NCBI GenBank assembly: GCA_003694225.1
Contig: RFKT01000059.1
Span: 1 to 10,800, forward strand
Reading direction: 5' to 3'
Source: Candidatus Dadabacteria bacterium
GTDB lineage: Bacteria > Bdellovibrionota_C > UBA2361 > J135
DNA: 10,800 nucleotides
Shown: positions 1-10,800 of the stretch, one piece after another
How positions within the stretch are numbered: position 1 is the stretch's first letter
Layout of the letters: the number at the start of each line of letters is the position of its first letter
Notes under the pieces: model-generated
Databases searched by the model: none
What the model was told of the DNA's origin: nothing
The model's input: only the letters and a program-made list of their open reading frames with translations
Translations under genes and position numbers: made by a program

Positions 1-669
1 AATTCCACAAGCACACCCTTCGACCAATGACTCGTATTCCTTTTTAACAATAAGATCCGCCGTTTTCGTATCCACTGTCAAAGCCTCACTATACGGTAGA
101 TAGTGAGAGAGATCCGTGCTAAACACAACCAAATCAGCTCTTTTAAAAGCCACACTTACAACCTCTGCCATACTCTCAACACCACACTCCCCCACAACAA
201 CAGGTGAAATAGAAGCTTCAGGGAAAACAGTCTGTATAAATGGAAGGTGAACTTCTATTGAGTGCTCGCGGGCGTGAGCCGCGTCGTTCCACTCAACGGT
301 GTCAAGCTCCGCTAACGCTTCATTTAACCGCCTACTAAGAGAAACCTTCCCTAGCGGCGTCTCAAAAAACCTCGCTCTGCTTAATCCGCATCCCAAAATA
401 GGAACCCTATGAGAAGGGCCAAAAATAGCTATCTCTCTTATAGACGAAGCTCGTTCTCTCCCAAAAAACAAGGCATATCCCCTTCCAGCAACACTGCCTG
501 AGTAAATATATCCAGCGTGTGGTACAATAAGAGCTGAGGGAAGGATGCCTGAATCCCTGGGCAGATCCTCAGAGAAAGTGAGAAAAGACCGCACCATCTC
601 TTGGAGAGCAGAAGGAGAAGAAGGGTAAAACATACCTGCTACAGCTGGCTCTCTAACGGATATGTCCAT
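1..669 (-). CDS. amrB: AmmeMemoRadiSam system protein B (Memo family), 3' end cut by window edge
   Basis: The minus strand from 669 to the left edge is open for 223 codons. It carries the Memo-family signatures in order: N-terminal REPAVAGMFYP (residues 6-16), VPHAGYIYSG (49-58), FGPSH (83-87), ETPLG (103-107), EHSIEVHLPF (135-144), STDLSHY (184-190) and a CACG motif at 219-222. His51, His87, His189 and the terminal Cys pair match the places where the family keeps its metal or active-site residues. The family is related to extradiol dioxygenases, but its bacterial reaction is not established. The ATG at 669 gives MDISVREP, which fits the family N-terminus. An in-frame ATG at 687 would add six residues and would abut the amrS start codon. 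Neither has a clear Shine-Dalgarno site. The divergent neighbour is the radical SAM partner, which supports the call. The C-terminal part lies outside the window. Confidence 0.9.
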   Translation of the reverse strand, partial: MDISVREPAVAGMFYPSSPSALQEMVRSFLTFSEDLPRDSGILPSALIVPHAGYIYSGSVAGRGYALFFGRERASSIREIAIFGPSHRVPILGCGLSRARFFETPLGKVSLSRRLNEALAELDTVEWNDAAHAREHSIEVHLPFIQTVFPEASISPVVVGECGVESMAEVVSVAFKRADLVVFSTDLSHYLPYSEALTVDTKTADLIVKKEYESLVEGCACGI

Positions 670-675
670 AGAGTT

Positions 676-679
676 GGAG
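676..679 (+). promoter_or_regulatory. Ribosome binding site that decides the amrS start
   Basis: GGAG ends 8 bases before the ATG at 688. The frame stays open upstream to a TTG at 601, but that stretch encodes an Arg-rich peptide antisense to amrB and has no comparable site, so translation most likely begins at 688. Confidence 0.6.
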
Positions 680-687
680 TATATCAT

Positions 688-1743
688 ATGAAAACGCCAG
701 AAGACACTCCATTCAAAACAAGGTATTACAGACAAGCTCCAAACGGAAAGATAGTTTGTACACTGTGCCCAAGAGAATGCTCACTTAGCGAAGGACAGAG
801 GGGGCTTTGCTTTGTAAGGGGGAGAGAGGAAGACTCCATTGTGCTTTACACATACGGCAAAACAAGCGGCCTTTGTGTTGACCCAATTGAAAAAAAGCCG
901 CTTTACCACTTCCTTCCTTCCTCATCGGTTCTTTCCTTCGGCACGGCAGGGTGCAATCTTACCTGCAAGTTCTGCCAAAATTGGCATATGAGTAAATCCA
1001 GAGATATAGCTACATCATCCATTCATTACTCTCCCAGCGAAATAGCCCAGATAGCAAAACGTCAAAAATGCGCCAGCGTTGCCTTTACCTACAACGATCC
1101 CGTTATCTTTATGGAATATGCCGTAGACACAGCTCAAGCGTGCCGGGAAGAAGGGATTGCCTCCGTTGCTGTAACCGCAGGATACATCAATAAAGAGCCT
1201 AGAGAGGAGTTCTTTCGTTATATTGACGGAGCAAACATAGATCTAAAGGGGTTTACAGAGAGTTTCTACAAAAAACTGTGTACAGGAAAGCTTGGAGCAG
1301 TCTTGGATACCTTAAGATATGTCGCCAAAGAAACCAATGTATGGCTTGAAGTAACAACCCTGCTGATCCCTGAAGAAAATGATTCCCCAAATGAGATTGA
1401 AAGGCTTTCCTCTTGGATTGCAAATGAGCTCGGAAGGAATGTCCCCCTCCACTTCACAGCATTCCATCCAGATTTTAGGCTTACCAATAGACCCCGCACC
1501 CCTTTAGAAACTCTGGTTAGAGCGAGAGAAATCGCCTTAAGCAACGGGCTTAACTTTGTCTATATAGGCAATGTATTGCACGAAGATGGATCTACGACCT
1601 ACTGCCGCAGATGCCATCTGCCGCTAATAAAACGGTGGGGATATTCAACGGAAATTACAGGCCTAAACCTTTCACACAGATGCAAACAATGCGGCGAACC
1701 GTGCCCCGGCGTATTTGACTCCTCTGAAATGATGACGACTTGA
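688..1743 (+). CDS. amrS: AmmeMemoRadiSam system radical SAM enzyme
   Basis: This 351-residue protein is a radical SAM enzyme of the type that travels with Memo and AMMECR1 proteins; its substrate is not established. The 4Fe-4S/SAM motif CxxxCxxC is at Cys89, Cys93 and Cys96 in GCNLTCKFCQNW. An N-terminal cysteine set (24, 27, 31, 41; CTLCPRECSL, then GLC) resembles the pyruvate-formate-lyase-activating-enzyme-like branch. A C-terminal cysteine set (306, 309, 332, 335, 339) looks like a metal-binding knuckle, and GNV near 294 lies in the usual late barrel region. The ATG at 688 is chosen over the in-frame TTG at 601 because of the GGAG site at 676-679, the usual family length and the overlap with amrB that the longer form would need. 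The gene is convergent with the histidine kinase gene, with 25 bases between the stops. A run of seven T at 1764-1770 follows, but I see no convincing hairpin before it. Confidence 0.93.
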   Translation: MKTPEDTPFKTRYYRQAPNGKIVCTLCPRECSLSEGQRGLCFVRGREEDSIVLYTYGKTSGLCVDPIEKKPLYHFLPSSSVLSFGTAGCNLTCKFCQNWHMSKSRDIATSSIHYSPSEIAQIAKRQKCASVAFTYNDPVIFMEYAVDTAQACREEGIASVAVTAGYINKEPREEFFRYIDGANIDLKGFTESFYKKLCTGKLGAVLDTLRYVAKETNVWLEVTTLLIPEENDSPNEIERLSSWIANELGRNVPLHFTAFHPDFRLTNRPRTPLETLVRAREIALSNGLNFVYIGNVLHEDGSTTYCRRCHLPLIKRWGYSTEITGLNLSHRCKQCGEPCPGVFDSSEMMTT

Positions 1744-1768
1744 GATTAAGAGCGCACTACCAATTTTT

Positions 1769-3409
1769 TTATAGCGACCTAGCTTTCTCTCTATCAAGCA
1801 CATCCCTTACATAGCTTATAAAATCAGCCATAGAATACGGCTTCGTGATATACCCCTGTATATTATTCTTTTCTAAGACGCTGTGAGTCAGTGTATCGCT
1901 ATACCCACTAGTAATAATTACAGGCTTTCCGGGCCTAAACTTTCGAAACTTTTTTGCCAGAGCAAGGCCGGTTGTACCCGGCATGGTTTGATCTGTGATA
2001 AGAAGATCAATCTCCAAATCTTGCTTCTTAAAGAGATCAATCGCTTCATTGGCTTCCTTAACAAATGTTACCTTATACCCAGACCTTTCAAGCATCTCTT
2101 TGGCTATCTCGCCAACCTTAGGCTCATCATCCACAACAACTACATTCTCTCCTCGCCCAATAGATGACATGGAAACAGCTTTTATATCAGTGCATTCCTC
2201 GTCAGTTGCTGGGAAATATATCTTAAACTCCGCTCCACTGCCCAACTTACTCCGAACCTGTATCCCTCCTCTATGCTCCCCAACAATACCGTGCACAACA
2301 GAGAGCCCTAACCCAGAGCCGTCTCCAACCTTTCTGGTAGTAAAAAAAGGCTCAAATATCTTTGAAATGAGCCCCTCATCAATCCCTTCCCCATTGTCCT
2401 CAACCGAAATCACAACATACCTGCCGGGCACAAGCTTGTTATATACGCACTCCAGAGGTTCTTCAATGTCTTGTTGATACAATGATACCTTTATTATTCC
2501 GTCTTTGGCTGAAGATACAGCGTGATATGCATTTGTAACCAGATTCATCACTACCTGTTGTATTTGAATTGGATCTGCCAGTACCGCCGCGCTATCTTCC
2601 GCACAGTTTAGCTCTATCTTTACTGTTGCCGGCAATGTTGCACGCAAAAACATCACAGCTTCTTTTATCACTCTCTCAAGCCTTATGACCTTCTTCTCTT
2701 CCTTAAGCTTACGGCTGAAAATTAAGATCTGCCTTATAAGGCTCTCTGCCTTGCGAGCGCATAAAAGGGCATTTCTTAGATGCTTAAGGTGATCCTTATC
2801 AGAAATTTCTCCCATCAAAAGCTCGATACTCCCTATTATTGGAGTCAAGAGATTATTAAAATCGTGGGCTATGCCGCCCGCCATAACCCCTATAGTCTCC
2901 ATCTTCTGAGCGTGAAGGAGCTGTTCCTGCAACTGCTGCTTCTCTTCCTCCGCCCTTTGCCGCTCGGTTACGTCCTGTACATAACCTTCATAGTGTGAAA
3001 TGACTCCGGCATCATCCCTTACAACAACCGTGTAATCATAAAGCCACCTCACCTCCCCATCAGGTCTTACAATACGATAGTGCTGCTCGAAATTTGCGGC
3101 GCCGGAGTTGCTGTAATGAATAACCTCTTGACGTATGCGCTCAAGATCATCCTCGTGTATCACTTCCGCAAATTTCACGCGGCCACACATAAAATCTTTA
3201 TCCGAATAACCAAAGATGTTAAATACATTGGGAGAAGCATACTCAACAGGCCAGCCCTCTTTGGCAACCCATCGAAAAACTACCGTTGGACCACCGGAAA
3301 AGAGCCTCCTTTCTCTCTCTAGCTCCCGCTCAAGCTGTGTACATCTCTGTGTAAGCTTGTCTATCTCTTTCTGAAATTTATCTGCCAAAAAGCGGTCTAC
3401 CTCAACCAT
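1769..3409 (-). CDS. Soluble PAS hybrid histidine kinase with C-terminal receiver domain
   Basis: This 546-residue signalling protein has no transmembrane segment or signal peptide, so it should sense something in the cytoplasm. An N-terminal coiled coil (about 12-36) is followed by a PAS_3-type domain (about 42-150; WPVEYASPNVFNIFGY at 53-68, DVTERQRAE at 146-154). The HisKA helix has phospho-acceptor His182 in GGIAHDFNNLL. The HATPase domain shows an N box (Asn289, Asn293), a G1 box DNGEGI (338-343), an F box FEPFFTT (352-358) and a G2 box GDGSGLGLS (362-370). The receiver domain (about 422-540) has acidic Asp427-Asp428, phospho-acceptor Asp473 in LLITDQTMPG, Thr500 and Lys523. All catalytic residues are present, so it should be active. 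It starts 9 bases after the hemL stop and is probably the last gene of the minus-strand operon. No separate output regulator is adjacent, and the ligand is unknown. Confidence 0.93.
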   Translation of the reverse strand: MVEVDRFLADKFQKEIDKLTQRCTQLERELERERRLFSGGPTVVFRWVAKEGWPVEYASPNVFNIFGYSDKDFMCGRVKFAEVIHEDDLERIRQEVIHYSNSGAANFEQHYRIVRPDGEVRWLYDYTVVVRDDAGVISHYEGYVQDVTERQRAEEEKQQLQEQLLHAQKMETIGVMAGGIAHDFNNLLTPIIGSIELLMGEISDKDHLKHLRNALLCARKAESLIRQILIFSRKLKEEKKVIRLERVIKEAVMFLRATLPATVKIELNCAEDSAAVLADPIQIQQVVMNLVTNAYHAVSSAKDGIIKVSLYQQDIEEPLECVYNKLVPGRYVVISVEDNGEGIDEGLISKIFEPFFTTRKVGDGSGLGLSVVHGIVGEHRGGIQVRSKLGSGAEFKIYFPATDEECTDIKAVSMSSIGRGENVVVVDDEPKVGEIAKEMLERSGYKVTFVKEANEAIDLFKKQDLEIDLLITDQTMPGTTGLALAKKFRKFRPGKPVIITSGYSDTLTHSVLEKNNIQGYITKPYSMADFISYVRDVLDREKARSL

Positions 3410-3418
3410 CTTTATAGC

Positions 3419-4702
3419 TTAAAGCAAAGGAAACACCTCCTCCAAAGCGGATACTGTTTTTTGGAAAGTCTCATCATTGTGAGATGCAGAAACAAACCCC
3501 GCTTCAAATTGAGACTGAGCAAAATATACTCCGCGCTCAAACATACCGGCAAAAAACTTTCTAAACCGCTCTAGATCAGATTCTGCCGCATCTTCACAGG
3601 TAACAATCGGCTTTTCAGAGAAAAAATACCCGAACATGGTTCCTTCATTATCAGCCACTAGAGCCACTCCATTGCTGCGAGCTATGTCAGATATCGCTTC
3701 TGCCAATCTAGAAGCATAATTTGCCGCAGTCTCAAACACACCTGTCTTATGCCATTCTCTTAACGTAGCTAATCCAACTCTCATTCCAAGCGGATTGCCA
3801 GAAAGAGTTCCCGCCTGATACACGGGTCCGCTAGGCGCCACAAGTTTCATTATATCCTCCCTGCCGCCATAAGCAGCCACATTTAGGCCTCCCCCTATTA
3901 CCTTACCCAGCATCGTAAGATCAGGGGTTATGCCGTAAAGCAGCTGCGCTCCAACTGGATGAACCCTAAACCCGGTCATCACCTCATCAAAGATTAAAAG
4001 AGCTCCTTCCCGTTCCGTAATCTGCCTCAATTCCTCCAAAAATTCCCCTTGAGGCTTTATAAACCCTGAATTTCCCACAATAGGTTCCACTATAACAGCG
4101 GCTATCTGCCCCCTGTTAGCAGCAAAGATCTCCTCCACGCTCCCTATGTTATTGTATTGGGCAAGCAAGGTGTCTGCCGCAACTGAGCTAGGAACACCGG
4201 GAGAATCAGGCAAACCCAAGCTCAAAACCCCGCTTCCAGCTTTTACCAAAAGTGAATCCACATGACCGTGATAACACCCGGAAAATTTAATTACCTTCTC
4301 TTTACGGGTAAACGCCCGGGCAAGCCTCAAAGCACTCATCGCCGCCTCAGTGCCGGAATTTACAAACCGCACCATATCTATGGATGGAAATAGACCTGTT
4401 ATATACTCAGCAAGCTCAACCTCAGCCTCGCACAGGGCTCCAAAACTTACACCTCTTTCTCCTTGAAAAGACAAAGCATCCAAAACAGCAGGATGTCCAT
4501 GACCCAACACCAATGGTCCCCAACTCAAGACATAGTCAACATACCGATTGCCATCGACATCATAAAGATATGCGCCCTCACCCCTCTCTACCACAAGAGG
4601 ATTGCATCCCACATGCCCAAATGCCCTCGCAGGGGAGCTCACTCCTCCTGGCATCACAGTGCAAGATTTGGAAAAAATCTCTTCAGATTTGACCCTATTC
4701 AT
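3419..4702 (-). CDS. hemL: Glutamate-1-semialdehyde 2,1-aminomutase
   Basis: HemL converts glutamate-1-semialdehyde to 5-aminolevulinate, the committed precursor of heme and other tetrapyrroles in the C5 pathway. It is a PLP enzyme of aminotransferase fold type I acting as a homodimer in the cytosol. The sequence (427 residues from this start) shows MPGGVSSPARAF near the N-terminus, VNSGTEA for cofactor phosphate binding (about 114-120), CYHGHVDS (143-150), FDEVMTGFR (238-246), the Schiff-base lysine in MLGKVIGGG (Lys267) and TLSGNPL (299-305). Length is normal for the family. The ATG at 4702 is preferred; an in-frame TTG at 4708 would add two residues and sits closer to a GGGA site. The gene begins 7 bases after the nadA stop and ends 9 bases before the kinase start, so it is almost certainly co-transcribed with both. 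Confidence 0.97.
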   Translation of the reverse strand: MNRVKSEEIFSKSCTVMPGGVSSPARAFGHVGCNPLVVERGEGAYLYDVDGNRYVDYVLSWGPLVLGHGHPAVLDALSFQGERGVSFGALCEAEVELAEYITGLFPSIDMVRFVNSGTEAAMSALRLARAFTRKEKVIKFSGCYHGHVDSLLVKAGSGVLSLGLPDSPGVPSSVAADTLLAQYNNIGSVEEIFAANRGQIAAVIVEPIVGNSGFIKPQGEFLEELRQITEREGALLIFDEVMTGFRVHPVGAQLLYGITPDLTMLGKVIGGGLNVAAYGGREDIMKLVAPSGPVYQAGTLSGNPLGMRVGLATLREWHKTGVFETAANYASRLAEAISDIARSNGVALVADNEGTMFGYFFSEKPIVTCEDAAESDLERFRKFFAGMFERGVYFAQSQFEAGFVSASHNDETFQKTVSALEEVFPLL

Positions 4703-4709
4703 ACTCAAA

Positions 4710-5633
4710 TTATCCCAGCGACAACATTCTATTAAGTGGTTCCATAGCCTTTTCTATCGTATCCATAGGAACATCCACCTGAGGAGACATGTTCTCCATG
4801 CACGATGCCAGCTTCTCCAATGTGTTAAGCTTCATATATGGACACTCATTGCACGCACACTCCCCTTCATCCTCAGACGGAGCAGCTATAAATTCCTTGT
4901 TGGGATTTCTTAGTTTCATCTGATGGAGGATCCCAGGCTCAGTCACTACGATAAACTGCCTTGCTGAACTTTCGCAGACAAAATTTAAGAGGGAGGATGT
5001 GGATCCAACGTGATCCGCCAAATCCAAGATCTGTTCCGGACATTCTGGATGGGCAACAACAAGTGCTTCGGGATAACGCACCTTAAGCTGAACCAATTTT
5101 TTTTCGCTGAAGGTTTCATGGACAACACATGTGCCATCCCACAAAAGGAGATCCCTGCCTGTCCTTTTCATCAGAAACTTTCCAAGGTGCTTGTCGGGAG
5201 CAAAGATAATCGGCTTATCTGGGGGAATAGAGTTGATTACTTTTACTGCGTTTGTAGATGTGCACAAAATGTCGCTTAACGCCTTAACCTCTGCAGAGCA
5301 GTTGACATAAGTTACAACAGTGTGATCGGGATGCCTTTCAATAAACTCTTTGAACTTATCAGCCGGGCAAGAATCAGCCAGAGAACACCCGGCATCCATA
5401 TCGGGGAGAAGCACGGGCTTGTCGGGATTGAGAATCTTCGCTGTCTCTGCCATAAAATGGACGCCTGCAAACACAATAACATCAGCAGATGTCTCCGCAG
5501 CCTTTTTTGCAAGAGCCAAGCTATCACCGACAAAATCTGCTATATCTTGTATGCGTGATTCTTGATAGTAATGGGCCAAGATTACCGCATTAAGCCTTTT
5601 CCTTAAGCGGTTAATCTTATCTAAAATGTCCAT
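4710..5633 (-). CDS. nadA: Quinolinate synthase (4Fe-4S)
   Basis: NadA condenses iminoaspartate with dihydroxyacetone phosphate to quinolinate in de novo NAD synthesis and needs a 4Fe-4S cluster held by three cysteines. The 307-residue product shows ILAHYYQ (18-24), the first cluster cysteine in DMDAGCSLAD (Cys83), YVNCSAEVKA (109-118), the second in HPECP (Cys198) and the third in the C-terminal CACNECPYMK (Cys264). SEDEGE just before that last motif replaces the first cysteine of the E. coli-type CxxCxxC with Glu, leaving CxCxxC. The ATG at 5633 has a GGAG 4 bases upstream and gives the family-like N-terminus MDILDKINRLRK; a TTG at 5648 would add five residues. No nadB or nadC is in the window. 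The gene lies between the DEAD-box-like gene and hemL on one strand. Confidence 0.97.
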   Translation of the reverse strand: MDILDKINRLRKRLNAVILAHYYQESRIQDIADFVGDSLALAKKAAETSADVIVFAGVHFMAETAKILNPDKPVLLPDMDAGCSLADSCPADKFKEFIERHPDHTVVTYVNCSAEVKALSDILCTSTNAVKVINSIPPDKPIIFAPDKHLGKFLMKRTGRDLLLWDGTCVVHETFSEKKLVQLKVRYPEALVVAHPECPEQILDLADHVGSTSSLLNFVCESSARQFIVVTEPGILHQMKLRNPNKEFIAAPSEDEGECACNECPYMKLNTLEKLASCMENMSPQVDVPMDTIEKAMEPLNRMLSLG

Positions 5634-5682
5634 ACCACTCCATGCCAAAACAACTAAAGCAAGCCAAAGCGATTGGGCGTTT

Positions 5683-7665
5683 TTATGCCCCTGCTTCTAC
5701 CCCCTCCCCAGAGGCAGCGCCTCCGTCTTCTGAGGTGACTTGGCCAGATTCGAGATCGCTTGCCTCCGGTTCAGTCTGAGATTCTGCGCTGGCTATGGCT
5801 TGCTCAGCATTTTCCCCATCACCCTCTTCTTGACCTGAAGAGCTCTGCTGCGGAGATGTCTCCCGCGGCAAAGAGATTGTTGTAGCTTTTCTAATAAAGA
5901 GCTTTTCACCATTTTTTAACGGAGCATCCTCTAAGGCAGTTAGTACACTATCTGCTTGCTCTTCTGCAAAATCCGCAAAAGAGTAGTGCTTTCTTAGGGA
6001 AAACCTCTTAACGCCACCATCGACAAGGCCGCACTTGTCCTTAACCAGCGACACAAATTCCTCCTCAGAAAATCCATCCTCTGAACCGTGCCCTATATAC
6101 ATCCGAACATCCTTTTTTGCAGGCGGAAGGGGCTCCGTCTGCCTGTTCCTCTCCCTACGGTAAGGCTGCTGCCTCTCTTCCTTGGCGCTTTTCTTAGGAT
6201 GCTTTCTCTGGGTATCTTTACGCCCCTTACGGACATTTTTTGAGGCCTTCCTTATATCTCCTCTCGGCTCCCGACTACGGCTTCTGCGATCCTTCCTGGC
6301 TAATTCTGCTACTTCCTTTTTCAACTCTGGAACTGTAACCAAAAACTCATGAAGCAAAAGAGCTAAGATTTGAGCCCTATTTGGATCCTTTTCCAGCATG
6401 TCAACCATGCCAGCAATCTGGCTATTCTCTAAATGATTGGCAAGCTTAGCCTCTTCAAAGAGCTTCTTAAGCCGTATAGCGTCGATATCCGCGCTAGTAG
6501 GAAGGGATGATTTTACAAACTCAATTCCTGTAACCTTTTTTAAGTAATGAAAGTTTGTAAAATCCAAAGGATTTACTAGACAATGCGATTCCTTTATGCT
6601 TACTGCCTGCCCTCTGGATCCGAATCTGTCAAGAAATTGCTCTGGCTTTTCGGGAATGCCGTAGTGGATGATTACTTCAAACATAGTGGGATCCAGATCC
6701 TGTATTGACGCATCGTTTGTAACCAACACAGATACGGCACCTTCTTCAATGTCCTTTCTAAGGCTTCTCATTGCGGATGCACTCCAGTCCTCTCGATCTG
6801 TTACAACTTTTTCAACTGCAAAGCCTCGCTTCTTTAATACAGCCTGCACTAAATCCACATCAGAGCCTGTATTTGTCACCACAAGCACCCTCGACCCGGA
6901 GCCAAAGGTTTCTAGCAACGATGATATTGCATTAGTTTTGTCCAAAAGCTCAGATCCCACTTCATACACAAAATGCTCTATTGAATCCGCTTGGTCGGGT
7001 ATCTCACATGTTTCAGGTGCAGTTACGCATCTTGCCTCGAATTCAGCTACTTCTACATTCTTGCTTAATGCGGAGTAAAGCACTTGGGGCTTTTCTGGTA
7101 TGCTATCTATAAAATCAGCAAGCTTACCCTTATCGATGCCATCAAGTATGCGATCCAACCCTTTCAGATAAACTGCAGCTATATCAGAAAGGGATATGAT
7201 GCGCTCTTCTATGCATTTAAGCACTCTGTCTGCGCTTCCAATTATTATCCTATCACTACTTGAAAAAGCCGTGTCACCTCCCAAGCAAACAAAAACCTCT
7301 ATATCGCTTCCATTAGAGAGTTGAGACATAACATCGCCCACACTCTCAGCCTCCGTATCATCACCGCACACTATGACAACCATCTTTGACTCAGAAAGAA
7401 GCTTAAGCCTCTCTAAGAAACCGATTCCAATAGCCGTCAGATGAAGAGGCAAAATAAACCCCATAATAGAAAGGTTCTTTCCGGCCATAACAGAGCTGCA
7501 CAACCTCCAAGCCGTGTCATCCATGCTCTGCACTCCAAGGCTCCGCAAAGACTCACTATAAGCCTTATAAATTGAGTCAGCTTCCGCTCTTGCGTCATCA
7601 CTTGCTGCATGATCTTCAAATTGCGCTTTATCTTCTCCAGAAAGTTCCGTTACACTATTATCCAT
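5683..7665 (-). CDS. Degenerate DEAD-box RNA helicase-like protein with DbpA-type RNA-binding domain
   Basis: This 660-residue protein keeps the shape of a DeaD/CsdA-type helicase but has lost its catalytic motifs. Residues 30-215 follow lobe 1. The Walker A position reads IMGFILPLH (67-75) with no GKT, and Ia is CGDDTEA (100-106). GSADRVLK (143-150) stands where TPGRLLD would be, AVYLKGLDRILD (164-175) where LVLDEADRMLD would be, and YSAL (197-200) for FSAT. Lobe 2 (about 230-385) has VLVVTNT (260-266), VLVTNDASIQDLD (313-325) for VATDVAARGLD and FLDRFGSRGQAV (344-355) for YVHRIGRTGRAG. A Lys/Arg-rich linker (about 456-510) leads to a well-kept DbpA/CsdA C-terminal RNA-binding domain (about 519-594; RMYIGHGSEDGFS), then an acidic Ser/Glu/Gly tail (600-660). 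The frame is intact over 1.98 kb, which argues for selection rather than decay. ATP hydrolysis and unwinding are unlikely; RNA or ribosome binding is the likely role. The ATG at 7665 has only a weak ribosome site. The gene probably heads the nadA-hemL operon. Confidence 0.85.
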   Translation of the reverse strand: MDNSVTELSGEDKAQFEDHAASDDARAEADSIYKAYSESLRSLGVQSMDDTAWRLCSSVMAGKNLSIMGFILPLHLTAIGIGFLERLKLLSESKMVVIVCGDDTEAESVGDVMSQLSNGSDIEVFVCLGGDTAFSSSDRIIIGSADRVLKCIEERIISLSDIAAVYLKGLDRILDGIDKGKLADFIDSIPEKPQVLYSALSKNVEVAEFEARCVTAPETCEIPDQADSIEHFVYEVGSELLDKTNAISSLLETFGSGSRVLVVTNTGSDVDLVQAVLKKRGFAVEKVVTDREDWSASAMRSLRKDIEEGAVSVLVTNDASIQDLDPTMFEVIIHYGIPEKPEQFLDRFGSRGQAVSIKESHCLVNPLDFTNFHYLKKVTGIEFVKSSLPTSADIDAIRLKKLFEEAKLANHLENSQIAGMVDMLEKDPNRAQILALLLHEFLVTVPELKKEVAELARKDRRSRSREPRGDIRKASKNVRKGRKDTQRKHPKKSAKEERQQPYRRERNRQTEPLPPAKKDVRMYIGHGSEDGFSEEEFVSLVKDKCGLVDGGVKRFSLRKHYSFADFAEEQADSVLTALEDAPLKNGEKLFIRKATTISLPRETSPQQSSSGQEEGDGENAEQAIASAESQTEPEASDLESGQVTSEDGGAASGEGVEAGA

Positions 7666-7685
7666 AACTTACTCACTCGTCCTAA

Positions 7686-7745
7686 TTTTCCAGTTAATTT
7701 TAGCAAAAAATAAATCAATCCATACTGTTTATTAGCCCTGGAAAA
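7686..7745. repeat. 8-base inverted repeat in the divergent promoter region
   Basis: TTTTCCAG at 7686-7693 and its exact complement CTGGAAAA at 7738-7745 are separated by 44 bases. Inside and beside the left arm, TAATTTT occurs twice in direct order (7683-7689 and 7695-7701). The arms lie just upstream of the pseudo-helicase gene and ahead of the plus-strand unit, so they could be operator half-sites. In AT-rich DNA a repeat of this length can also occur by chance. Confidence 0.35.
7697..7705 (-). promoter_or_regulatory. Possible extended -10 element for the minus-strand operon
   Basis: On the minus strand this reads TGCTAAAAT, a TGn extension followed by a 5-of-6 match to TATAAT, about 32 bases before the ATG at 7665. 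No good -35 box is visible at 16-18 bases, as is tolerated in extended -10 promoters. The support is sequence resemblance only. Confidence 0.3.
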
Positions 7746-7807
7746 GTTATACCATAACCAGATATGGACCTAGCTAATCTAGGGAATTGCCCTTCCAAAT
7801 CTGAACG

Positions 7808-7836
7808 TTGTACATTACAAACAAACGTTTTACAAT
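7808..7836 (+). promoter_or_regulatory. Possible sigma-70-type promoter for the WD40 lipoprotein-lspA unit
   Basis: TTGTAC at 7808-7813 and TACAAT at 7831-7836 are separated by exactly 17 bases. The -10 matches TATAAT at five of six positions and the -35 matches only the leading TTG. Transcription from here would start near 7843, which excludes the ATG at 7764 and permits those at 7869 or 8073. Confidence 0.35.
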
Positions 7837-8072
7837 TCCCCAAGTGCCAACAGAGGATAATACTGCTAATGGAATCAAATAAGCAACTTTCCCCACAAAA
7901 CAATTTAGATCCTTACAGGTTAGGGCTACATGCATTCCTTCAGCATAGCAACGAAGAGCTATTAACCAAAGCTCCCCTACGCCTTTTGCCACTTCCCTCC
8001 TCAAAAAGCAGAGAAAGCGCTATATATCCCCTCCTTTCACATATTACCAGCTTACTTATTACCAACGCCCAT

Positions 8073-9446
8073 ATGGCTAGAACGTTGTTATATATTTTTG
8101 CGCCTCTAGGCAAGCGCCATTCCACTTACCGTATCTTATCAAAATTAATATTAAATGTCATTATCTGTATAACATTTACCGTTTTTCAAGGGTGCACTCA
8201 AGCAACATCACTGCCCAATCCACAACAAGCTCAAGACAAAAGGGATAAGCCCGCTCTGCATAATAGAAATCTTAATGTCGAACCCCCTCCAAGCGTACTG
8301 GAGGGGAAATGCGCCAAGGCTAAATCCTTACCCACTGCAAAAATAGCGACTATTTATAAGAGGAACTCTACACATATACAATCAACTGAAAAGCTATCAG
8401 ATGCCATCGAACTATGGAATATAAGCTCTTCTCCCAGCTTAAGTTATATCCTAACAGTTGGAAGGGATGGAAAAGTCATCCTTTGGAAAGTAAGAAAAGG
8501 AACGAGTGATGGTGTTCTTTTAGCGCAACTACCGCCTTCATCTACAGCTAAATCTGCATTCTCACATCATAGCCACCTTCTTGCATACAGTGTGGGGGAA
8601 AATCTATATATCTTATCCATTGCTTCTCCTGCATTGGAACAACAAACCGTATCCCTTTCAACTCGGATACAATCATTGGCCTTTACCCCTTCTGGCAAAT
8701 CCCTTATTGTCGGCGGTTCAGACGGAAACATCTATGAAATTCCAAATGTAAAAGAATGGAATCCAAACAGCCCTACTAACAGGTATCTCGGTTCCTCTTC
8801 CCCAATATCTGCGATTGTATCAGGATTCAAAGGAAAGGTGTTTTTCAGCGGAAACTTTAAGGGTGATCTTATCGCATGGGTTAGATACAGCTTTGAGAAG
8901 CACGGAGGGTTTTACGACAAAAATTTAGGCACCAAGAAATATGTTGAATACAAGAGCGTAAAGGAAGTAGGGAGGAAAGGAAACGGGGTTGGAATTGATC
9001 ATATCGCAATAAACTGCAATGGAACTATATTGTATGCAGCCCTCCAAGACGGAACTGTTGAAGCATGGAAGATTAAAGGGTTTAAGCTTTTGGCTTCAAA
9101 AAAGATCCACTCAACAAGAATAAAAGGGCTTTATGCAAACGGCATTAGCCGGTTTCTTACAATCTGGAGCGATAAGCGAATAATATTGACAGAATTAACC
9201 TCAACTGAGTTTAAATCAACCGTGATTGTGCCCGTAAGGCGAGGAGAAGGGCCTCCAAACCAGATAGAAAAAATAAGAGAAGAATATGAGCTGGCAAACA
9301 TTTTGAGCGTCAAAAAACCGAAGATTCTTGGTGCTGTGTTTTCTGGAGGAAACAGTATAATTACACTGGAAGCAGATAAAGGATTTTTAATAAACAGCCT
9401 AAAACTGCCAGTACAACAGAACAAAAATCAAAAAGGATCCCTGTGA
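8073..9446 (+). CDS. WD40-type beta-propeller lipoprotein
   Basis: From the ATG at 8073 the product has 457 residues. A basic n-region (GKRHSTYRILSK) leads to a hydrophobic stretch ending in the lipobox VFQGC, with lipidated Cys41 followed by Thr, so by the E. coli rule it would go to the outer membrane. After a low-complexity linker (42-75) come several degenerate WD-like blades: TVGRDGKVILWKV (128-140), VGGSDGNIYEIP (214-225), SGNFKGDLIAWVRY (259-272), ALQDGTVEAWKI (323-334) and WSDKRIILTEL (365-375). Such propellers are binding platforms, so an envelope scaffold role is plausible; I recognise no specific family. The start is uncertain: ATG 7869 has an AGAGG 12 bases upstream and ATG 7764 has no site. 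The stop codon overlaps the lspA GTG start by 4 bases, so the two genes are very likely translationally coupled. Confidence 0.75.
   Translation: MARTLLYIFAPLGKRHSTYRILSKLILNVIICITFTVFQGCTQATSLPNPQQAQDKRDKPALHNRNLNVEPPPSVLEGKCAKAKSLPTAKIATIYKRNSTHIQSTEKLSDAIELWNISSSPSLSYILTVGRDGKVILWKVRKGTSDGVLLAQLPPSSTAKSAFSHHSHLLAYSVGENLYILSIASPALEQQTVSLSTRIQSLAFTPSGKSLIVGGSDGNIYEIPNVKEWNPNSPTNRYLGSSSPISAIVSGFKGKVFFSGNFKGDLIAWVRYSFEKHGGFYDKNLGTKKYVEYKSVKEVGRKGNGVGIDHIAINCNGTILYAALQDGTVEAWKIKGFKLLASKKIHSTRIKGLYANGISRFLTIWSDKRIILTELTSTEFKSTVIVPVRRGEGPPNQIEKIREEYELANILSVKKPKILGAVFSGGNSIITLEADKGFLINSLKLPVQQNKNQKGSL
8284..8306 (+). other. Strong GC-rich hairpin inside the WD40 lipoprotein coding region
   Basis: CCCCTCCA at 8284-8291 and TGGAGGGG at 8299-8306 are perfect complements around the 7-base loop AGCGTAC. 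No T run follows (the next bases are aaatgc), so it is not a standard intrinsic terminator. It encodes PPPSVLEG in the linker between the lipidated Cys and the propeller. Confidence 0.5.
9433..9437 (+). promoter_or_regulatory. Ribosome binding site supporting the GTG start of lspA
   Basis: AAGGA lies 5 bases before the GTG at 9443, inside the last codons of the upstream lipoprotein gene. It supports the GTG start and the 4-base GTGA overlap. Confidence 0.6.
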
Positions 9447-9952
9447 AGTTCAGCAATAGAAAAAGGGTTAACAGTTTAAAAATCGTGGCCTGCGTGACTT
9501 TATTGGTCACTGCGCTAGATCAGTATACTAAGCACATCATATTAGAGCATCTGGCGCCAGGGGAAACGATAACCGTGATCCCAAGTCTCTTCAATATCAT
9601 TTTAACCTTCAACAAAGGAGCTGCGTTCGGAATCTTTTCAAACATGCCGGATGGACACAGAACTATAATATTAGGCATGGCTACGATCTCTGCCCTTGCT
9701 GTAGTAGCTTATCTCTTAGTGAAAGACTACAAAGGCAACCTTTGGGGCCAGATTGCTCTAAGCATGGTGCTGGGAGGAGCATTTGGCAATATTATAGATA
9801 GGATAAGGCTTGGTATGGTGGTGGATTTTTTGGATTTTTATATAGGAGCATACCATTGGCCTGCGTTTAACCTTGCTGATTCTGCTATAACAGCTGGGAT
9901 CTGCATCCTTATACTTATAAGGACTACAGTCTCCAGGGAAAATCATAAATGA
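9443..9952 (+). CDS. lspA: Lipoprotein signal peptidase (signal peptidase II)
   Basis: LspA is an inner-membrane aspartyl protease that cuts the signal peptide of diacylglyceryl-modified prolipoproteins just before the lipidated cysteine. The 169-residue product has the expected four hydrophobic segments (about 13-30, 74-94, 101-118 and 144-161). The conserved blocks are LDQYTK with Asp26, FNKGAAFG (56-63), GGAFGNIIDRI with catalytic Asp119, VVDFLDFY (126-133) and FNLADSAIT with catalytic Asp146. The length is typical. The GTG start overlaps the WD40 lipoprotein stop by 4 bases. Downstream are two genes for putative lipoproteins, so the enzyme sits among its likely substrates. Usual partners such as ileS are not seen here. 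Confidence 0.97.
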   Translation: MKFSNRKRVNSLKIVACVTLLVTALDQYTKHIILEHLAPGETITVIPSLFNIILTFNKGAAFGIFSNMPDGHRTIILGMATISALAVVAYLLVKDYKGNLWGQIALSMVLGGAFGNIIDRIRLGMVVDFLDFYIGAYHWPAFNLADSAITAGICILILIRTTVSRENHK

Positions 9953-10024
9953 ACTTCTTGCGTCACACCACCTAATGATAGATTATATAAAAAGGAAAGG
10001 GCTGTCTTTTGCGGTAAAGATTGT

Positions 10025-10444
10025 ATGCTCAAAAAGAAAAAAGCAACGTGTAGGCAGATCTCTCTGTTAGCATCCATGCCTATACCAGAGTTTATCATTT
10101 CGATATCTATTATATTGGCAACTGCACTATTGCTTGCAGGGTGCTCAAACCACGGGGGAGCCTCTATTGGCGCAACGGCAGGAGCTGTAGCCGGCGGAGT
10201 AGCAGGAAAGAAAAGCGGTTCAACTGCTGGAGGGGCGGTTATAGGGGGCATAGGCGGAGCGGCTGCGGGAGAGATTATCGATGTAGAGCTTCAGAAAAAA
10301 AATCCTCTGGGACAGGCGTATTATGAAGAGCTAGAAAGGCAAAAAAAAGACATTGAAAGGCAGAGAAGAGAGATAGAAGATATTAAAAGGCAAAAATACT
10401 ATGATGAAAGGCTTAAAGGCTACACAACTTCTAAAGAGGACTGA
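10025..10444 (+). CDS. Glycine-zipper lipoprotein with C-terminal coiled coil
   Basis: This 139-residue protein has a hydrophobic signal (about 22-38) ending in the lipobox LLAGC, with lipidated Cys40 followed by Ser. A long run of small residues with a GxxxG pattern (about 44-82: ASIGATAGAVAGG, then GGAVIGGIGGAAAGE) is of the glycine-zipper type found in Rickettsia 17-kDa antigen-like and related envelope proteins. It can form packed, membrane-associated helices. Residues 97-130 are highly charged and repeat RQ and KD/RE pairs (ELERQKKDIERQRREIEDIK), as in a coiled coil. An internal ATG at 10076 would give a shorter signal, and neither start has a strong ribosome site. The gene begins 72 bases after lspA. 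TTGCGT at 9958-9963 and GATTAT 17 bases on form a weak promoter candidate in that gap. The exact function is unknown. Confidence 0.8.
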   Translation: MLKKKKATCRQISLLASMPIPEFIISISIILATALLLAGCSNHGGASIGATAGAVAGGVAGKKSGSTAGGAVIGGIGGAAAGEIIDVELQKKNPLGQAYYEELERQKKDIERQRREIEDIKRQKYYDERLKGYTTSKED

Positions 10445-10529
10445 CAACAGAGGGATAAATAGTGAAAGCGCCTCTGCTATAACACTTTGAATGGGAGTAA
10501 GATTTCCTGAAAGGCGCAGCGGTTAATAT

Positions 10530-10535
10530 GGAGGT
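10530..10535 (+). promoter_or_regulatory. Strong ribosome binding site for the second glycine-zipper lipoprotein
   Basis: GGAGGT is a full Shine-Dalgarno core ending 7 bases before the ATG at 10543. ATG codons at 10528 and 10540 are in the same frame but overlap this site or lie too close to it. Confidence 0.7.
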
Positions 10536-10542
10536 AGAGATG

Positions 10543-10800
10543 ATGCGAAACACACTCTTAGGCATAGCTTGTTTGGGATGGCTCGCTGTAAACGGGTGTA
10601 CAGTGCCTGGAGACACAACAAAACTTGGAGCTGCTACAGGAGGAATAATAGGCGCAGGAGTGGGCGCGCTTGTAGGAAGCCAAACGGCAACCCCTGCAGG
10701 CGGATTGATCGTAGGAGGATTAGCCGGCTCAGCGGCGGGGGCGGCTGTAGGAAATGCTTTGGAAGCGCATGAAGAACAGCTAAGAAGACAGGACGAAGCG
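10543..10800 (+). CDS. Second glycine-zipper lipoprotein, 3' end cut by window edge
   Basis: The frame is open for 86 codons to the right edge. The product begins MRNTLLGIACLGWLAVNGC, a compact lipoprotein signal with lipobox AVNGC and lipidated Cys19 followed by Thr. Residues about 27-68 are a glycine zipper (LGAATGGIIGAGVGALVGS, then GGLIVGGLAGSAAGAAVG). A charged segment, ALEAHEEQLRRQDEA, follows, probably the start of a coiled coil. The order of parts is the same as in the gene 98 bases upstream, which suggests tandem paralogues, although the sequences have diverged. The start is chosen for the GGAGGT site at 10530-10535 and the fit of the signal peptide. The C-terminus is outside the window, so an OmpA-like or other domain there cannot be excluded. 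Confidence 0.8.
   Translation, partial: MRNTLLGIACLGWLAVNGCTVPGDTTKLGAATGGIIGAGVGALVGSQTATPAGGLIVGGLAGSAAGAAVGNALEAHEEQLRRQDEA

Follow-up and report, generated by a model that had tools for sequence, protein, structure and literature searches.

A conserved bacterial descendant of a DEAD-box RNA helicase, without its motor and probably acting as an RNA adaptor

Contig RFKT01000059.1 of a Candidatus Dadabacteria bacterium (GenBank assembly GCA_003694225.1; GTDB lineage Bacteria; Bdellovibrionota_C; UBA2361; J135) carries, within the 10,800 nucleotides analysed here (positions 1 to 10,800, hereafter the window), a gene for a helicase-like protein in which every catalytic motif of the DEAD-box family is gone. 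We argue that this gene goes back to an RNA-unwinding enzyme whose motor was lost while the parts that grip RNA were kept, and that it probably encodes a working RNA-binding protein rather than one in decay. As to what this pseudo-helicase does, we think there is a reasonable case, built on sequence comparison and a predicted structure, for a conserved non-catalytic, dimer-forming RNA adaptor.

The open reading frame (ORF) starts with ATG and runs uninterrupted for 660 codons. Alignment with intact relatives leaves nothing of the Q, Walker A, DEAD, SAT and HRxGRxxR motifs, and judged by the four that characterise DEAD-box RNA helicases (GKT, DEAD, SAT and HRxGRxxR) the protein is not one of them. 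An initial annotation, made from the sequence alone, had proposed just such a two-lobed, helicase-derived protein with an open frame and no catalytic motifs, which alignment and ORF confirm; its motif readings hold for the missing GKT, for SAL and for DRFGSRGQ, but its LKGL is one residue off, the DEAD position reading KGLD. The similarity to DEAD-box helicases is not due to chance, because the NCBIfam profiles for DbpA (5e-22) and CshA (7e-21) both match, albeit far under their naming cut-offs, and CshA (5ivl, 9e-14) is the top PDB sequence. Of the three Pfam domains that the annotation had named for a search, Helicase_C is recovered weakly (17.3 bits against a cut-off of 23.5) and DbpA (PF03880) at threshold (25.5 bits against 25.6 with hmmscan, 29.2 bits and hence above cut-off in the genome search, so that a DbpA-type domain can be assigned), but no DEAD domain is found. 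The RNA recognition motif (RRM) formed by this DbpA-type domain, previously described as intact, is predicted to be so in fold but is divergent in sequence: used alone as a query, it retrieves no PDB sequence at E <= 10.

In the predicted structure, two RecA lobes are followed by a helical domain and then by the RRM, with the predicted local distance difference test (pLDDT) mostly above 90 for both lobes and the RRM. The two RecA-like lobes anticipated from the sequence are thus present in the model, which superposes on CshA (9a76_B over residues 20-447, 5ivl_A over 33-443); its helices 391-463, a putative dimerisation domain, fall within the part aligned with CshA. The model of a single-lobe relative, P0014, finds its structural matches in Hera/DeaD fragments. 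Alignment and model together describe a predicted helicase fold without functional motifs, that is, a pseudohelicase. Residues 447-515 are basic, with 26 K/R against 11 D/E.

Is the loss of motifs peculiar to this one sequence? Searches at class and at phylum level returned an identical set of 45 genomes, 28 from the order of the window's genome and 17 from outside it (a first search of 37 genomes, the window's own included, had given a match in 34). Within the order, the motif-less gene is present in 25 of 28 genomes (profile search, over 350 bits) and in all 13 high-quality genomes (at least 90% complete, at most 5% contamination); the three with no such gene over 350 bits in that search (G011, G022, G025) are 84-88% complete. 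G011, 88% complete, also gave no DEAD-box match with the profile, no DbpA and no RpoB hit. GKT, DEAD, SAT and HRxGRxxR are missing from the corresponding positions of all 25 orthologues; what comes nearest is L002, with APAGSGKR and a Q-like motif, and L016, with HRMGRTGN. The losses are therefore common to the orthologues, as the annotation had supposed, and not decay confined to the window.

Outside the order, 11 genomes carry an intact gene and four a degenerate one (G028, G031, G035, G040), G034 has other helicases only and G030 has no match. Together with the order members, these four make up a set of 29 degenerate genes, in which DbpA is detected in 27 (E <= 0.01), Helicase_C in 28 and DEAD in two. 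Common to every member are RecA2, the helical part, the linker and the RRM. Fourteen of the 25 order members have lost the first lobe, and fewer than 100 residues precede RecA2 in 18 of all 29. Arg347, at the HRxGRxxR position, is invariant in 19 aligned members and nearly so in the 29. RecA2 and RRM are joined by a linker whose length across the set is anywhere from 20 to 174 residues, with up to 18 RG dipeptides; RG-rich linkers are a feature of phase-separating RNA-binding proteins. With the conserved half of one member as query, 115 database proteins (of 3701 candidates) were obtained, and 81 of the 86 set apart at E <= 6e-38 have no precomputed DEAD domain. The relatives are filed as Bdellovibrionota, Bdellovibrionales, Deltaproteobacteria or Pseudomonadota bacterium, names suggestive of Bdellovibrionota-like bacteria; the limits of the phylum Bdellovibrionota are discussed as unsettled in an excerpt of PMC13200544.

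Selection on the pseudo-helicase is purifying in g11, the one genus that offers close pairs. The ratio of nonsynonymous to synonymous substitution rates (dN/dS) is 0.079 for one of the closest pairs (L053/L061, dS 0.81) and 0.033 for the other (L054/L058, dS 1.68), and full-length values range from 0.033 to 0.206 over the 34 of 45 pairs that could be computed, well under 1. A pseudogene or an assembly error is ruled out by losses common to 25 genomes, long open frames and these ratios. The conserved, repurposed pseudoenzyme of the initial annotation thus draws support from the shared losses, from dN/dS in one genus and from the prediction of both lobes.

In sister families a helicase with this RRM and with its motifs present stands at the same chromosomal place, from which we conclude that a CshA/DbpA-like helicase lost its motor in situ. 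The DbpA RRM is found in 10 of the 11 intact class-level helicases (the eleventh gene runs into a contig end). Among 29 neighbourhoods compared, 24 of the 25 from the order and two of the four from class level have a WD40-like gene in divergent orientation to the gene, and in 22 order loci lspA lies beyond the WD40-like gene. Of the four degenerate genes outside the order, three have WD40 beside them, and lspA is near that of G028. Eight of the 11 intact class-level genes also lie beside WD40, one of them with an ORF between.

Fifteen of the 28 order genomes additionally encode an intact near-paralogue. All 15 have the DEAD domain and none has DbpA, and the shorter ones (385-399 aa) stop at about the end of RecA2. 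PF03880, conversely, is found in 24 of the 28 genomes, always on the pseudo-helicase, which is its sole carrier in 22; in G003 and G005 it also occurs on an intact helicase. Judging from these domain assignments, catalysis and RNA targeting appear to be carried on separate genes in the order. Intact, degenerate and near-paralogue genes have in common certain RecA2 residues (H231, FCN..SD and, after these, an R/K-RG stretch) that depart from the consensus of 13 further DEAD proteins in the phylum. No near-paralogue was found in five f4 genomes, G002, G005 and the window's own genome (G000), some candidates being excluded by profile score only, though the pseudo-helicase is present in these. In the window's own assembly, 70% complete, there is no DEAD-box RNA helicase among five DEAD-domain hits, which by eye are Mfd, PriA, SecA and, on two contigs, one XPB-like helicase; this XPB/MPH1-like gene, again by eye, seemingly spans two contig ends (L033, L035). 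An intact paralogue of the kind that the annotation had envisaged was thus found in just over half of the order but not in this incomplete assembly, and a role as regulator of such a paralogue is possible but less sure.

Trees of the helicases and of RpoB differ in what they say about the number of losses. In the helicase tree, 13 near-paralogues, the intact class-level helicases and the degenerate genes of G035, G040 and G031 form one clade (95/86), and the order's degenerate genes with that of G028 form another (100/99). The near-paralogues are not a clade of their own; the picture fits duplication followed by complementary loss, although no date for the duplication can be read from the tree. 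A single clade of all degenerate genes is not rejected by this tree (approximately unbiased test, p 0.143 with all 29 degenerate rows, 0.449 once L116, which is very long, is removed). The RpoB tree, in contrast, nests G035 and G040 among intact genomes and rejects a single motor loss: it is incompatible with the nine intact genomes as one clade (p 9.3e-5), with G035 and G040 outside the intact genomes (p 0.0012) and with G031, G035 and G040 as one clade (p 1.1e-5), while G031 outside the intact genomes is compatible with it (p 0.30). These groupings were picked after the tree had been inspected, so that the p values are favourable, and the tree covers 40 of the 45 genomes, partial genes included (G011, G025, G037 and G038 had no match; G022, partial, was left out). 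Provided that lost catalysis does not return and that no gene transfer took place, the RpoB tree implies that the motor was lost at least twice, with a third loss possible. The trees also conflict over the window itself, whose gene falls inside the order's degenerate clade (100/99) although RpoB separates its genome from the rest of the order and puts it beside 13 class-level genomes (99).

How might a helicase without a motor be of use? The RRM and the basic linker would bind structured RNA, most likely either rRNA or one of the other RNAs on which the ancestral helicase acted; rRNA is our best guess because DbpA-type domains bind 23S rRNA (binding of hairpin 92 applies to DbpA/YxiN only). 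The helical domain, by analogy with CshA and Hera, may pair two copies, and RecA2 would serve as a binding platform rather than as half of an ATPase. The protein could then take part in RNA decay or ribosome assembly without using ATP, in the role of an RNA adaptor or RNA chaperone. The RNA clamp proposed initially is less sure: a DEAD-box RNA clamp requires two closing lobes, and 14 of 25 order members have one. Several points weigh against our reading of the protein as an adaptor. RNA binding and dimerisation are read from sequence and model, and the RRM appears too divergent to tell which RNA it would bind. Intact helicases, which can lend their fold, were among the aligned sequences from which the models were built: nine for the window model and five for the single-lobe model. 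The dN/dS pairs come from genus g11, not from the window's genus, and dS is saturated in 11 of the 45. Motif V, finally, reads TND in the window (as in P0002 and P0003) against TD in most order members.

One alternative takes the near-paralogues more seriously. Imagine that the duplicated helicase divided its labour in trans, with the near-paralogue as ATPase core and the pseudo-helicase supplying dimerisation and RNA targeting to one and the same machine. The complementary distribution of DEAD and DbpA over near-paralogues and degenerate genes, both being present in intact class-level genes, is what this would predict, as are the largely exclusive DbpA carriage by the pseudo-helicase in the order and the distinctive RecA2 residues. 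However, a partner is found in little more than half of the order, in two genomes an intact helicase carries a DbpA domain itself, and the near-paralogues fail to group as one clade; we consider such a partnership, suggested by sequence comparison, rather unlikely. About equally doubtful is a broader version, in which a bare ATPase core and a motorless RecA2-dimerisation-RRM subunit work in trans and other families lost the motor in parallel at the same locus. Parallel loss, if true, would show that these helicases have a separate function in their C-terminal half. A motorless copy might also act as a brake that limits an active helicase by occupying its RNA or dimer sites. Retention of the RRM and of a dimer-like helical domain with loss of catalysis is the usual make-up of a dominant negative, yet in 22 of the 24 order genomes with a DbpA hit no other DbpA-bearing helicase was found to compete with, and the shorter near-paralogues end about where RecA2 does, so that we hold this to be improbable.

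Two further explanations deny that there is a new function at all. The protein might still be an ATPase with an unusual nucleotide site, as could be suggested by two nearly invariant residues, the D in motif V and the first R in motif VI; with complete Walker A, DEAD and HRxGRxxR lost in all 25 order members compared and the first lobe absent in 14 of them, we find this very hard to credit. Least plausible of all is a gene on its way out. It would account for loss of the first lobe, and in the g11 pair that keeps this lobe, L049/L050, it does evolve faster than RecA2 (dN 0.353 and dN/dS 0.181 against 0.077 and 0.073), but presence in every high-quality order genome, open frames of 380-704 aa and dN/dS well under 1 speak against it.

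Features of the window, with strand and the basis of each assignment
Feature	Coordinates	Strand	Basis
Pseudo-helicase gene, 660 aa	5683..7665	-	ORF; orthologues in 25/28 order genomes, window's own included
Degenerate RecA1 lobe, about residues 20-224	6994..7608	-	
Walker A position, GFILPLHL, residues 69-76	7438..7461	-	alignment to intact relative
DEAD position, KGLD, residues 168-171	7153..7164	-	alignment to intact relative
SAT position, SAL, residues 198-200	7066..7074	-	alignment to PDB sequence match
RecA2 lobe, about residues 225-388, core common to all members	6502..6993	-	Helicase_C in 28/29 degenerate members; model
HRxGRxxR position, DRFGSRGQ, residues 346-353	6607..6630	-	alignment; intact relative reads HRTGRTGR
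Helical domain, residues 391-463, at CshA/Hera dimerisation-domain position	6277..6495	-	model, structural alignment
Basic linker, predicted disordered, residues 464-516	6118..6276	-	pLDDT < 50 over most of 468-511
DbpA-type RRM, residues 517-602	5860..6117	-	Pfam DbpA; pLDDT mostly above 90; DbpA in 27/29 degenerate members
Acidic tail, predicted disordered	5686..5859	-	last 57 residues: 14 D/E, zero K/R; model
WD40-like gene, divergent conserved neighbour	7764..9446	+	26/29 neighbourhoods; Pfam WD40
lspA, signal peptidase II, conserved neighbour	9443..9952	+	neighbourhood comparison, domain scan
Glycine-zipper protein gene, frequent neighbour (loose cluster)	10025..10444	+	neighbourhood comparison, domain scan

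Directly downstream of the pseudo-helicase lie nadA and a class III aminotransferase gene (hemL-like), at 3419-5648 on the minus strand, neither of which has relatives in the other 28 neighbourhoods compared. Nine bases downstream of the hemL-like gene follows a hybrid sensor kinase (1769-3409, minus; PAS, HisKA, HATPase and receiver), and beyond it a Memo-like protein (1-735, minus) is divergent from a radical SAM protein (601-1743, plus), the called ORFs overlapping. In the two class-level loci scanned, a class I tRNA synthetase with DUF5915, presumably IleRS-like, sits between the WD40 gene and lspA (L060:9630-12962, L113:1612-4905); no tRNA synthetase gene occupies that place in the window or the order loci. 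Upstream of the gene in genus g11 (L049, L050, L052-L055, L057-L059), a promoter-like block resembling AACTTCCGC..TATGGTATAGACTA in most of the nine loci precedes a short hairpin-like repeat, a long poorly conserved stretch and the start codon, perhaps a promoter with a long leader. In the window, a search of Rfam for a conserved 5' RNA gave no match.

Pseudohelicases have been described in eukaryotes, and among the matches listed in the open-access library searched we found no earlier description of a conserved bacterial DEAD-box pseudohelicase. Intact, two-lobe and single-lobe forms stand here side by side, largely at one locus, and a non-unwinding role of a DEAD-box protein therefore becomes testable. 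Current names can mislead: several members without a DEAD domain, among them P0034, P0047, P0062 and P0072, are called 'ATP-dependent RNA helicase DeaD' or 'superfamily II DNA/RNA helicase'.

Among the closest known systems is the intact orthologue of the sister families (such as L046 and L060), which has the same WD40/lspA location, the same RRM and common RecA2 residues and differs in possessing all catalytic motifs. From dimeric helicases of the CshA/CsdA/Hera type, which have C-terminal accessory domains, the order members differ in that all 25 lack complete Walker A, DEAD, SAT and HRxGRxxR motifs, and 18 of the 29 degenerate members differ further by loss of RecA1. With DbpA/YxiN the pseudo-helicase shares a DbpA-family RRM at the C-terminus, but it has no ATPase motifs and its RRM is too divergent for a PDB sequence match. 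Utp25/Def of the small-subunit (SSU) processome, called 'the first fully validated pseudohelicase' in the excerpted text of PMC9539457, is similar in its predicted DEAD-box fold, vestigial helicase motifs and conservation; it differs in being eukaryotic, in carrying its accessory sequence at the N-terminus and in keeping both lobes, and that excerpt mentions no DbpA RRM. Utp25 and the bacterial pseudo-helicase probably arose separately.
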